This document shows positions 41,851 to 45,406 of a stretch of 48,359 bases of DNA, in pieces. The number at the start of each line of letters is the position of its first letter. Within the stretch, counting starts at the first letter, position 1. The notes under the pieces were generated by a model. It was not told the DNA's origin and did not search any database. It saw nothing but the letters and a program-made list of their open reading frames with translations. Position numbers and translations under genes: made by a program. Origin of the DNA: Pyrinomonadaceae bacterium (GTDB lineage Bacteria > Acidobacteriota > Blastocatellia > Pyrinomonadales > Pyrinomonadaceae). The stretch covers positions 1 to 48,359 of the forward strand of contig JABARP010000009.1 of NCBI GenBank assembly GCA_019186825.1. Direction: 5' to 3'.

Positions 41851-42354
41851 ATGAAGTTGCAAGCAAAGGTCGGTGATGAAACATCCGAGGTCTCTATAAA
41901 GAACGGGGCGGGACGAGGCTACGCCGAGATCGATGGACGCACTTACGAGTTTGATGCCCTTGAACCCGAGGCCGGGCAATTCAGCATACGGCTCGCAGAT
42001 GGTCGGAAGATCGAGGCACGAGTCTCACTTGATGCAGAAGGCCGATCTCTTGTCTGGATCGATGGCCGTTCTATCGAGGTGGAATTGATCGACCCGAAAA
42101 GGCTTCGCGGTACGGGAGGTTCGTCTTCGGAAACCGCCGGTGTTGCGGATATCAAGACAGCGATGCCGGGAAAGGTAGTCCGCCTGATCGCCTCAGTCGG
42201 CGATACTGTTGAGAAAGGCGATGGCGTCATTGTGGTCGAGGCTATGAAGATGCAGAACGAGATCAAAGCCCCGAAGAACGGTACCGTTACCTCGATCCGC
42301 GTCGCCGAAGGCGACACAGTTGACCCGGGCCAGACCTTGCTCTCTATTGAGTAG
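41851..42354 (+). CDS. biotin carboxyl carrier protein
   Basis: A 167-residue carrier whose C-terminal 75 residues are a biotinyl domain: IKTAMPGKVVRLIASVGDTVEKGD, then the biotinylation site VEAMKMQNEIKAP, then VRVAEGDTVDPGQTLL-like ending. The N-terminal part (about 1-90) is a beta domain with GRTYEFDALEPEAGQ, as in acyl-CoA carboxylase carrier subunits that act with a separate carboxylase and carboxyltransferase. Neither partner is adjacent, so the target, acetyl- or propionyl-CoA carboxylase or another, is unknown. It is 27 bases after the CorC-like gene and overlaps the convergent pheA end by 11 bases. Confidence 0.88.
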   Translation: MKLQAKVGDETSEVSIKNGAGRGYAEIDGRTYEFDALEPEAGQFSIRLADGRKIEARVSLDAEGRSLVWIDGRSIEVELIDPKRLRGTGGSSSETAGVADIKTAMPGKVVRLIASVGDTVEKGDGVIVVEAMKMQNEIKAPKNGTVTSIRVAEGDTVDPGQTLLSIE

Positions 42355-43222
42355 CCGCCGTTAGGACGACGAACGTCGTAGCGTTGTCCTCCCTGTCGGC
42401 GATATCCCGCTTGAGAATAACGCCGCCGTAAAGTTCGGCCGCTGCTTCGCTGCAGATCGCAGCCGAATGCACGTCGTTGTTCCAAACAATATCTCGGAGA
42501 CTCGCCGCCGTATCGACCGATTCAACCGCAGAAAGCTGCGGGTTCGCGGAGAGAAATTCTGTGCATTGCCGCAAAGCCTCCGGGTGAGAAACGACATGTG
42601 TGATCTCATCCATGGAAGCCTTCACCGCACCTGCCAACACATGGCGAACCGCGACCTTTACTGTCGCCTTTACGTCAATGTCATCAGCATCCAGATGCTC
42701 TTTCGTAGATGTGATCTCGCCAACGATCGTATTCGACTTCGGGATCACGGCGAACTCGGCCCTTCCCGAACGCAAAAGAGCAAATGCTTCGTCGAAGGTA
42801 TCGCATCCGAGGATCTCGATGTTCGAGCCCAACGCTTCGAGTGCTGCCGCCTCGCTGTAGGAACCTCGCGTGCCTTGGATCGCAACTTTCGTCAATGAGC
42901 AATCGTCATCGACCGATTGCTCACGCATCTGTTCGACAGCCTGCACGCGGCGTGATTCTGCGAGAATCGCCTCATAGATCTGATCGACGACACGCGAATC
43001 CACTACGCCGACACTCAAGTTTCGAACTCGGTCAAAGATCCGCATCTCGCGTTCCCGGTCGCGTATCGGCGTGCCAGATAGATGCTTCAACCGCGATATC
43101 TCGCGAGCGATCTGTGCCCGTTTCGCCAGCAGGCCGACGATCTCACTGTCCACGTCATCAATTTGCTTTCGCCAATCGTTTAGATCCATATACAAAATCA
43201 GAAAAGGCCGTGAATCTATCAT
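42344..43222 (-). CDS. pheA: chorismate mutase / prephenate dehydratase PheA without ACT domain
   Basis: Bifunctional enzyme making phenylpyruvate from chorismate. The N-terminal AroQ chorismate mutase (about residues 12-105) keeps its active-site pattern: WRKQID, LLAKRAQIA, RLK, RDREREMRIFDRV and the closing VQAVEQ Gln. The dehydratase part (about 120-290) has IQGTRGSYSEAAAL, HPEALRQCTEFL and SEAAAELYGG. The usual PIENT reads PKSNT, and the TRF motif reads TTF, with the key Asn and Thr kept. It stops right there, with no C-terminal ACT domain for Phe feedback. The ATG at 43222 has AAGG six bases upstream but lies within the attenuator hairpin; the ATG at 43189 (MDLNDWRKQ) comes after the hairpin and lacks a ribosome binding site. 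Confidence 0.88.
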   Translation of the reverse strand: MIDSRPFLILYMDLNDWRKQIDDVDSEIVGLLAKRAQIAREISRLKHLSGTPIRDREREMRIFDRVRNLSVGVVDSRVVDQIYEAILAESRRVQAVEQMREQSVDDDCSLTKVAIQGTRGSYSEAAALEALGSNIEILGCDTFDEAFALLRSGRAEFAVIPKSNTIVGEITSTKEHLDADDIDVKATVKVAVRHVLAGAVKASMDEITHVVSHPEALRQCTEFLSANPQLSAVESVDTAASLRDIVWNNDVHSAAICSEAAAELYGGVILKRDIADREDNATTFVVLTAATQ

Positions 43223-43232
43223 TCACGGCCTT
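43200..43232 (-). terminator. phenylalanine attenuator terminator hairpin
   Basis: On the minus strand AAGGCCGTGAAT and ATTCACGGCCTT (43221-43232 and 43204-43215) form a perfect 12-bp stem with a 5-base loop, followed by TTTTCTGATTTT. It lies 26 bases after the stop of the Phe-rich leader peptide. It also ends the bshC-mutL transcript. The 5' arm contains the AAGG and reaches into the ATG at 43222, so folding would hide a possible pheA start. Confidence 0.85.
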
Positions 43233-43258
43233 CATCTCGAAACTTTTAGTGTCTTTAC

Positions 43259-43348
43259 CTACATTTTGACACAGCTTCCGACCGCATTCTGCGAAAAGTT
43301 CGCAAAATAGCTGTTAAAGAAGCTAAAGCCAAAAGTGTTGAATGTCAT
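43259..43348 (-). CDS. Phe-rich leader peptide of the pheA attenuator
   Basis: A 29-codon frame, ATG at 43346-43348 to TAG at 43259-43261. Residues 3, 6, 8, 10, 11, 15 and 18 are Phe and residue 14 is Tyr: MTFNTFGFSFFNSYFANF, then a Phe-free end. A GGAG (43363-43366) lies 14 bases upstream, and a 7-codon frame (MEFRERR) stops on the leader's own ATG (ATGA). The run of Phe codons, the position between a promoter and a terminator hairpin, and the target gene pheA match the design of pheL-type leader peptides in enterobacteria. Translation would stall at the Phe codons when charged tRNA-Phe is scarce. Confidence 0.85.
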   Translation of the reverse strand: MTFNTFGFSFFNSYFANFSQNAVGSCVKM

Positions 43349-43373
43349 CGTCGTTCTCTGAACTCCATCTAGA

Positions 43374-43402
43374 AAAATAAAGGTTTCGTGCGGATTGGTC
43401 AA
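43374..43402 (-). promoter_or_regulatory. promoter of the pheA leader
   Basis: On the minus strand TTGACC (43397-43402) is followed 17 bases later by TATTTT (43374-43379). Transcription would begin near 43367, just before the leader's GGAG, giving a leader RNA of about 165 bases up to the terminator. The promoter lies after the mutL stop, so it is dedicated to the leader and pheA. Confidence 0.65.
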
Positions 43403-43435: not shown

Positions 43436-45406
43436 TCAGGTTCGGTGGAAGCCCCGCTCGATATCCCTCATAGATAAGCGAAGTATTACCGGCCGACCGT
43501 GCGGGCACGTAGTTGGCGATGTCGTCACCACAAGATTATCGATAAGCCAACGCATTTTCTCAGGCGTCAGCTTCATATTGATCTTCACCGCTGCGTGACA
43601 CGCAAGCGATGCGGCAATATCGTCCCGAAGTGTCGTCTTCGGCGCCTTTCGTTTTTCGGAATCGACCGTGTCAAGAATTTCGGCGAAAAGATTCCTTGCC
43701 TCGGACGGCGGCAGATCGTTCGGCACGCTTTTGATCGCGACCGTCCTCCCCGACAGCCTCATCGTGCCAAAGCCAAATTCTGCGAGATCGTCCTCGATCA
43801 ACGCAAACGCTTCGGATTGCGCCGGCGAAAGGTCGATAGTCTCAGGCAACAGCAAATTCTGCGAGCCGACCTGGCGTTCGGCTTCCGACCGTCTGAATTT
43901 ATCGAACAAGATACGCTCGTGCGCAACGTGCTGATCGATCAAAAGAAGCCCTTCATCATCAACCGCAATAATAAAGCTCTCGCGAAGCTGACCAAGCGGG
44001 ACGATCTTCGCCAGAGACAGTGATTCGGGATCCGCGGGCTTAGCGAGATGCGTAGCCGAATTCAATGGCGGAAGGTCGGGCAACCTCGCTGCTTCGACCG
44101 TTGGGGATACGGAAGCGTATTCACCAACAACTGCTGCGCTAGCGAGCTGTTGCTCTTCGAATGCCCGTTCGAAGAGATCGAGCTTTGACGGACTTTCGCT
44201 AAAATGCTCCGCTCGATTCCCGGCGTTAACTTCCGCAGTTTCGCGTTCGAGCACTCTATCTGCCAGGCTGCGATCGAAGTCAACCTCGACGGCAATGGTC
44301 TCCGGCGTTAAATCCATTGTCTCCTGGACAGGGAGCGGCGGAGCCACGGCAGGCTGCGGTTCGATATGAGGCCGAACGGTGTCTTCAACGACGACCGGTG
44401 CTTCGCCGACCACACCCGCGTTCGAAAGGGCCGACCTTACCGCCTCTGCAACCGCATCCTTTACCGCCTCAGTACGGCGAAAACGCACTTCCGTCTTCGA
44501 CGGATGAACGTTAACATCGACCTCATCAAGCGGAAGTTCAATGAACAAAAATGCGACCGGATACACGCCATGCGGCAAAACAGAACGATAGCCTTCGAGG
44601 ATGCCGCCCGCGATCGTCTTGTCGCGAACGAATCGCTTGTTCACAAAGAAATATTGCTGATCACGCGACGTCCGCCTCTCGCGAGGTGCCGATACGAAGC
44701 CGGAGACCTTAGCAACGAACTCCCTGCCACCCGACACCGGCAAAAGACTCTCAAGAAGATTCCCGCCAAAGATCTGAAATGCCCTTTCGCGCAGGTCCTT
44801 CGCGGGCGGAGCATTCAGCGTTTCACGACCATTGTTCGTAAGCAAAAAGGCGATCTCAGGGTGCGCAAGAGCGTAGTGCGTAACGATCTGCGTGAGATGG
44901 TAATTCTCCGTTGCTTCGGACCGCATGAACTTGCGGCGTGCGGGAGTATTGAAGAAAAGGTCCCTTATAGCGATCGTCGTTCCTTTATCGCGGCCCGAAT
45001 CCTTTACATCAATCAACCGGCCGCCTTCGATAACAACTCTCGTTGCGGCAACGTCGTCGCCGGTTTTGGTCACAAGTTCGGTTTTCGAAACGGAAGCGAT
45101 CGAGGCAAGAGCTTCTCCACGAAAGCCCAGCGTCCCGATCGCCGCAAGGTCTTCGAGCGATCGGATCTTCGAGGTCGCATGGCGTTCGAACGCAAGTATC
45201 GCATCGTCGCGAAGCATTCCATCGCCATCGTCAGAGATACGGATCAGCCGTCGGCCACCGAGTTCGACCTCGATCGCGATACGCGTCGCTGCCGCGTCGA
45301 TCGCATTCTCGATCAGTTCTTTGACAACCGACGCGGGACGCTCGACAACCTCACCGGCCGCGATCTGATTTGCAAGATTATCTGAGAGTACGCGGATCTT
45401 GTTCAT
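43436..45406 (-). CDS. mutL: DNA mismatch repair protein MutL
   Basis: Mismatch-repair ATPase that links MutS recognition to strand incision. The 656 residues have the GHKL ATPase N terminus (IAAGEVVERPASVVKELIENAIDAAA, DDGDGM, ATSKI, LGFRGEALASIASVS), the transducer domain (VNKRFVRDKT, VDVNVHPSKTEVRF), a variable acidic linker (about 340-470) and a C-terminal dimerisation domain. The endonuclease metal site is present as DQHVAHERILFDKF, with Asp replacing the last Glu, plus ACHAAVKIN and CPHGRPV, so it is a nicking MutL as expected without MutH. It overlaps bshC by four bases and is cotranscribed with it. Confidence 0.95.
   Translation of the reverse strand: MNKIRVLSDNLANQIAAGEVVERPASVVKELIENAIDAAATRIAIEVELGGRRLIRISDDGDGMLRDDAILAFERHATSKIRSLEDLAAIGTLGFRGEALASIASVSKTELVTKTGDDVAATRVVIEGGRLIDVKDSGRDKGTTIAIRDLFFNTPARRKFMRSEATENYHLTQIVTHYALAHPEIAFLLTNNGRETLNAPPAKDLRERAFQIFGGNLLESLLPVSGGREFVAKVSGFVSAPRERRTSRDQQYFFVNKRFVRDKTIAGGILEGYRSVLPHGVYPVAFLFIELPLDEVDVNVHPSKTEVRFRRTEAVKDAVAEAVRSALSNAGVVGEAPVVVEDTVRPHIEPQPAVAPPLPVQETMDLTPETIAVEVDFDRSLADRVLERETAEVNAGNRAEHFSESPSKLDLFERAFEEQQLASAAVVGEYASVSPTVEAARLPDLPPLNSATHLAKPADPESLSLAKIVPLGQLRESFIIAVDDEGLLLIDQHVAHERILFDKFRRSEAERQVGSQNLLLPETIDLSPAQSEAFALIEDDLAEFGFGTMRLSGRTVAIKSVPNDLPPSEARNLFAEILDTVDSEKRKAPKTTLRDDIAASLACHAAVKINMKLTPEKMRWLIDNLVVTTSPTTCPHGRPVILRLSMRDIERGFHRT

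Follow-up and report, generated by a model that had tools for sequence, protein, structure and literature searches.

A predicted phenylalanine leader-peptide attenuator before pheA, and candidate cognate leaders for other amino acids, in Acidobacteriota

The window, which is the whole analysed stretch of 48,359 nucleotides from a Pyrinomonadaceae bacterium (contig JABARP010000009.1), carries pheA on the minus strand behind mutL, which ends upstream on the same strand at 43436. Direct reading and a scan of the interval found, in this order, a promoter, a Phe-rich frame and a terminator hairpin, followed by pheA (Table 1). A sequence-only reading of this DNA had named the promoter TTGACC-17-TATTTT, the GGAG and the 29-codon frame, whose first 18 residues hold seven Phe and one Tyr, and all of these were recovered. 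The promoter begins 33 bases downstream of mutL and was the sole site that the promoter scan gave between mutL and the hairpin. The GGAG lies 14 nt from the leader ATG, which is longer than usual, and 13 nt separate the terminator hairpin from the ATG of pheA. The terminator stem was composed of 13 pairs, including six G-C pairs and an outermost G-U pair, and was followed by TCTGATTTTG; the hairpin with its T-rich tail at the pheA start was as first described, but its length had been given as 12 bp. Because the next gene downstream of pheA (41851-42354) is on the opposite strand, the transcript probably carries pheA alone. In the window and its close relatives, the pheA start lies 13-16 nt beyond the GGCC in the terminator stem, and no Shine-Dalgarno sequence precedes it (43189-43205); GGAG occupies that position in several other genera of the family.

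Table 1. Features of the leader region and pheA in the window
Feature	Position	Strand	Basis or remark
-35 element TTGACC	43397..43402	-	direct reading and scan; TTGAC invariant in five-genome alignment
-10 element TATTTT, 17-nt spacer	43374..43379	-	direct reading and promoter scan
GGAG, possible weak ribosome-binding site (putative role)	43363..43366	-	kept in 3/5 genomes
Leader peptide frame MTFNTFGFSFFNSYFANFSQNAVGSCVKM, 29 codons	43259..43348	-	ATG 43348, TAG 43261-43259; 7 Phe codons
Segment 1, 5' side of early (protector) hairpin	43299..43338	-	pairs with 43295-43261
Segment 2, antiterminator 5' side, GCGGUC + GAAGCU + GUGUC	43268..43285	-	fold and five-genome alignment
Antiterminator 3' side, GACAC + AGUUUC + GGCCGU	43225..43253	-	last part = segment 3, in terminator 5' arm
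Intrinsic terminator hairpin (segments 3 + 4)	43203..43233	-	13 pairs; T-rich tail 43202-43193
pheA, 281 aa, chorismate mutase type II / prephenate dehydratase	42344..43189	-	PF01817, PF00800

A leader-peptide attenuator has a short frame rich in the codons of its amino acid, an intrinsic terminator between the leader and the structural gene, and, after the control codons, an antiterminator that excludes the terminator. The first of these was found at the sequence level, in both the frame and its codons. Among the 913 frames of 10-60 amino acids in the window, the leader frame was the only one with seven Phe in 18 residues (the next best had six), and 20 random windows from a first-order Markov model contained zero such frames. 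A chance frame was rejected on the grounds of this unmatched density.

The intrinsic terminator was evident from both sequence and fold. The fold of the full leader (43367-43203), at -56.3 kcal/mol, comprised the terminator and an early hairpin of 32 pairs (43338-43261); 200 shuffles averaged -36.8 kcal/mol (sd 3.7), giving a z of -5.3. The early hairpin of the sequence-only reading thus exists, but the pairs claimed for it are part of this larger structure. To represent a stalled ribosome, the RNA upstream of 43293 was treated as held by the ribosome and the 3' arm of the terminator as not yet made. The resulting fold was a three-helix, 17-pair antiterminator (GCGGUC/GGCCGU, GAAGCU/AGUUUC and GUGUC/GACAC), which uses the terminator's 5' arm, and the 7-nt antiterminator proposed earlier proved to be its outer helix. 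Folding with and without a ribosome, the check suggested for the earlier interpretation, accordingly gave the antiterminator in the stalled state, but with a z of only -0.93, equalled by 32 of 200 shuffles. The outer helix of the window, with its G-U pairs, had -10.0 kcal/mol, a value reached by 118 of 200 shuffles, and segment 2 paired with its own arm no better than with foreign arms (mean -11.0). An antiterminator that excludes the terminator was found after the control codons, although its outer helix is weak in the window taken alone.

We then considered four close genomes (ACE_ACI4, SRR2107171_bin.14, SZAS-14, and OLB17; PheA 71-81% identical), which were aligned with the window over the whole region. 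As had been anticipated for close relatives, a Phe-rich frame preceded pheA in all four, and the promoter, the terminator and the 17-pair antiterminator were kept in all of them as well. The leader frame showed an in-frame codon difference and synonymous changes of Phe codons. Across the five genomes, 85 of 85 antiterminator cells were paired (28-45% in slid versions), as were 63 of 64 terminator cells and 139 of 160 cells of the early hairpin (38-49% in slides), and a T-rich tail followed the stem in 5/5. Base 43225 was U or C, and its pairing with both 43285 and 43211 was retained (G-U or A-U together with U-A, or G-C together with C-G); the antiterminator has one such G-C/A-U/G-U position among the five genomes. 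The blocks GGAAGCTGTGTC and AAAGTTTCGA, conserved in the alignment, would be explained by the antiterminator. Conserved stems with covariation had been expected in relatives: conservation was complete for the antiterminator, but its covariation in the five genomes did not pass the shuffle control (202/500) because they vary too little, and the support for pairing came from the 22-genus comparison given below.

The survey of pheA was extended to the class Blastocatellia, where a PF00800 match was present in 105 of 162 genomes, and to the phylum, from which 247 genomes were drawn; 150 of these had a match, 131 of them outside the class. Upstream regions were examined for the 105 class loci, some of which are cut by contig ends, and for 69 of the 131 outside the class (three with less than 200 nt upstream). 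Leader and terminator occurred together at 48 of the 105 class loci and in 21 of 37 genera. By family, they were found at 36/69 loci in Pyrinomonadaceae (f1), 4/7 in f2 and 8/9 in f6; the full set was missing from 57 loci, including every locus of f3 (0/8), f4 (0/3), f5 (0/1), f7 (0/6), and f8 (0/2). The 48 leaders were chosen by eye, one per locus, from frames with at least four Phe in 14 residues. Frames of this kind that were passed over mostly resembled gene tails or overlapping alternatives, and seven Phe-rich frames of f4 and f7 (L031-L034 and L037-L039) were left out for want of a clear terminator. A fully automatic strict count of a Phe-rich frame plus a terminator gave 38/105. Pyrinomonas methylaliphatogenes K22 (L223) has both leader and terminator. 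Among 21 other pheA loci of the window's genus (32-46% PheA identity for those compared), the full attenuator was present at five and not at 16. At L009, one of these 16, the promoter, segment 2 and the terminator are in place, but only three Phe codons were counted by eye.

Outside the class, MTTSRRFFPFSFRTSGARVGGV-like frames were found at 14 of 16 loci examined in one family (f29). Just eight of the 14 were carried on, owing to a narrow search expression, so that the leader set comprised 56 loci; six more loci outside the class with four Phe in 14 residues were counted as chance. Phe-rich frames also preceded pheA in Bacteroides and Phocaeicola (L245, L246), Gemmatimonadetes (L213) and Acidiferrales (L229, L240), for example MKTFATYFFFFFYYFYFSNEVKREFAYIR, and a terminator was called for the first three loci and not for L229 and L240. 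The recurrence of the Phe-rich frame and hairpin before pheA in 21/37 genera bears on a different explanation, in which the hairpin is merely the terminator of mutL and the frame is due to chance. The position of mutL, directly upstream on the same strand, would suit this explanation, but the promoter site lies between mutL and the hairpin, and the ATG of pheA is a mere 13 nt from the hairpin. A mutL terminator only is contradicted by the comparative data, and we rejected it as almost inconceivable.

Several further features were noted in the surveyed genomes. Three of the 16 same-genus loci lacking the attenuator (L010, L011, L017), with pheA 33-35% identical and no Phe leader, have ilvB on the same strand at a distance of 2-3 kb. 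The 57 of 162 class genomes without a prephenate dehydratase match include five same-genus genomes with a completeness of 97-98%; Phe auxotrophy and another enzyme are possible alternatives for these 57 genomes. At L031, positions 625-2310 encode a 561-aa protein in which a prephenate dehydratase domain is preceded by an N-terminal part that we take to resemble DAHP synthase, and similar long frames were seen in L032-L039. At seven of these nine loci a Phe-rich short frame lies ahead with no clear terminator, and control at such loci is possibly translational.

To see whether the leaders match the pathway, we compared genes for other amino acids. The strict scan, which took 18/21 pheS, 22/23 trpE and 14/15 ilvB loci, gave a Phe frame plus terminator at 2/69 pheA loci outside the class, compared with the 38 within it, at 1/22 trpE loci, and at none of the hisG (0/14), ilvB (0/14), leuA (0/15), and pheS (0/18) loci. 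Two of the pheS loci left out have Phe-containing frames, in one case with six Phe on a TTG start; a looser pheS scan found at least four Phe in 14 residues at 6/21 loci, none convincing. Neither leuA (15 loci) nor pheS had a matching leader. A Trp frame plus terminator was found before trpE at 14/22 loci, and an Ile/Val/Leu frame plus terminator before ilvB at 5/14 (L329, L331, L333, L337, and L344 in relatives). A His frame preceded hisG at 6/14 loci when no terminator was required (L291 and L293-L297, in relatives; for example, MNETRTILHHHHHAHHTHRAWLI) and at 0/14 with the strict terminator; a looser search found a hairpin, weaker and interrupted, after all six His leaders. In the window's own genome, a Trp leader MKFFGAIFYAFNLYTFFWWQFTGASLRSHLTVKN with TTGACA upstream, a terminator and cognate pairing lies before trpE (L322; G000:C10, about 90239-90344, plus strand). 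This leader also has several Phe and Tyr codons and may respond to aromatic amino acids as a group. The same genome (95% complete) contains trpE and pheA and gave no match for hisG, ilvB, or leuA, from which auxotrophies are possible.

In the set of 56 leaders, segment 2 started 2-14 nt past the start of the last Phe codon in 46 and ended ahead of the leader stop codon in 52. The pairs formed by segment 2 and the terminator arm varied in their letters: CGGCC/GGCCG, CGGCT/AGCCG, GAGGGG/CCCCTC, GGAGCGGG/CCCGCTCC, GATGATGA/TCATCATC, CCTCGGG/CCCGAG, and others. In a cognate test with one leader per genus (22 genera, 20 random draws of representatives), segment 2 paired with its own arm at -16.8 compared with -12.2 (sd 0.69) for permuted arms; 0 of 20,000 permutations were as good, and the outcome was the same in 20/20 draws. 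After row and column means were removed, 20 of 22 cognate residuals were negative. Genus representatives replaced an earlier clustering, under which 47 of 56 leaders had merged into a single cluster and the p value was 0.17. In single-locus shuffles, segment 2 pairing was not significant for many leaders, the window's among them. Cognate pairing was also detected before trpE (n = 14, p 0.001, with two doubtful rows: L321, a weak hairpin, and L323, a wrong small frame), hisG (n = 6, p 0.026), and ilvB (n = 7, p 0.005).

These comparisons bear on the view that the product of the small frame is a Phe-rich peptide with a function of its own and that the RNA structure is incidental. The frame is indeed kept in relatives, as such a peptide would be, but across genera the peptides are alike in Phe density and in little else, the RNA pairing is retained with different letters, and the frames of other pathways are rich in their own amino acid. 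A functional micropeptide was rejected as very improbable, since the peptides diverge across genera while the RNA pairing stays.

In stalled-ribosome folding, 52/56 leaders had antiterminator pairing over 5 nt or more, and when the ribosome was placed at the stop codon, with an assumed footprint of 15 nt ahead of it, the terminator was free in 56/56. The early hairpin, which is strong in the window, was not general across the 56 leaders; without a ribosome, the antiterminator was still favoured in 20 of them. Promoter-like pairs scoring at least 9 of 12 preceded 41/56 leaders compared with 9% of simple shuffles, and 0/8 of the f29 leaders had such a pair.

The stretch before pheA thus contains the elements of an attenuator and an alternative 17-pair fold that occupies the terminator's 5' arm, and these are conserved. 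We regard it with high confidence as a predicted ribosome-mediated transcription attenuator of the pheL type; the earlier interpretation as a Phe attenuator is supported by the sequence-level tests. From the anatomy and its conservation we infer the following steps. When charged tRNA-Phe is ample, the ribosome would translate the frame as far as its stop codon and cover 43278-43268; the antiterminator would stay open, and the terminator would then form 13 nt before the pheA start. When charged tRNA-Phe is scarce, the ribosome would stall in the Phe codons and segment 2 would remain accessible, so that the antiterminator would take shape ahead of the terminator and transcription would continue into pheA. 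If there is no translation, the early hairpin of segments 1 and 2 would favour termination.

The short distance from the stem to the ATG also suggests another mode of action, in which the hairpin hides the initiation region of pheA and is opened in a Phe-dependent manner, so that translation is controlled. The absence of a Shine-Dalgarno sequence ahead of pheA in the group of the window, the weaker, interrupted hairpins of the relatives' His leaders and the seven f4/f7 Phe-rich frames with no clear terminator are in its favour. However, all five close genomes have a T-rich tail after the stem, as do the 56 leaders, where it was a search condition, and in several other genera the GGAG lies between the hairpin tail and the ATG, outside the stem. 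We consider translational control at this locus unlikely.

Together, the leaders before pheA, trpE, hisG and ilvB make it fairly probable that Acidobacteriota have an attenuation regulon in which each of these operons has a cognate leader peptide, a terminator and an antiterminator, none of them related in sequence to those of Proteobacteria, with Phe leaders before pheA reaching Gemmatimonadota and Bacteroides; leader-peptide attenuation would then be far older than the group in which it is best known would suggest, or would have arisen many more times. For the leader described here a function can be put forward, and the same architecture recurs in 21/37 genera of one class, with letters that differ between genera. 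Amino-acid sensing thereby becomes testable in a phylum described, in the part of the source available, as major in soils (PMC7077872), and the leaders provide material for asking whether attenuation is ancestral or convergent.

In Escherichia coli, pheL-pheA has a Phe-rich leader peptide, and an antiterminator and a terminator form as alternatives upstream of a Phe gene; the acidobacterial leader resembles this system (RF01859 Phe_leader) in these features. A difference is that segment 2 stops short of the leader stop codon in 52 of the 56 leaders. In sequence and structure the acidobacterial leader falls outside RF01859: the covariance model gave 0/40 relatives over the cut-off, with a positive E. 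coli control. One relative gave a match of 36.6 bits, below the cut-off of 55, which was rejected as a plain inverted repeat without a Phe frame. No Rfam family matched the window or 20 related loci at the gathering score, nor L322 (trpE) and L344 (ilvB), the two such loci scanned; a T-box or metabolite riboswitch was rejected for this reason, the two chance matches having E values of 2.3 and 3.7. The mechanism that we predict is classical, and the phylum is one for which the open-access matches listed included no described amino-acid attenuator, in agreement with the earlier suggestion that an acidobacterial Phe attenuator may be new; the surveys of Lopatovskaya 2010 and Vitreschak 2004 may contain cases. 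In the accessible parts of two papers, acidobacterial leader genes 10-11 bp before genes were explained by reinitiation, not attenuation (PMC4833913), and almost no acidobacterial attenuators had an assigned function (PMC2965389).

The remaining comparisons likewise follow the available portions of the sources. The uORFC-13-1 motif before aroF of Acholeplasma, with a proposed Phe-codon leader, a promoter and an adjacent terminator (PMC8632094), is like the acidobacterial leader in placing a Phe-codon leader on an aromatic pathway gene outside Proteobacteria; it belongs to another phylum and another gene and is described with at least one Phe codon. The pheST attenuator of gamma-proteobacteria (PMC1262725) shares Phe-dependent attenuation with what is predicted here, whereas no comparable Phe leader was found before pheS in our loci. 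Leader-peptide attenuators of trp, ilv and other operons in Proteobacteria and Actinobacteria (PMC1262725, PMC10272879), and those inferred before amino-acid operons of a flavobacterium (PMC9723704), follow the same logic as the predicted leaders before trpE, hisG and ilvB, their counterparts in a different phylum.
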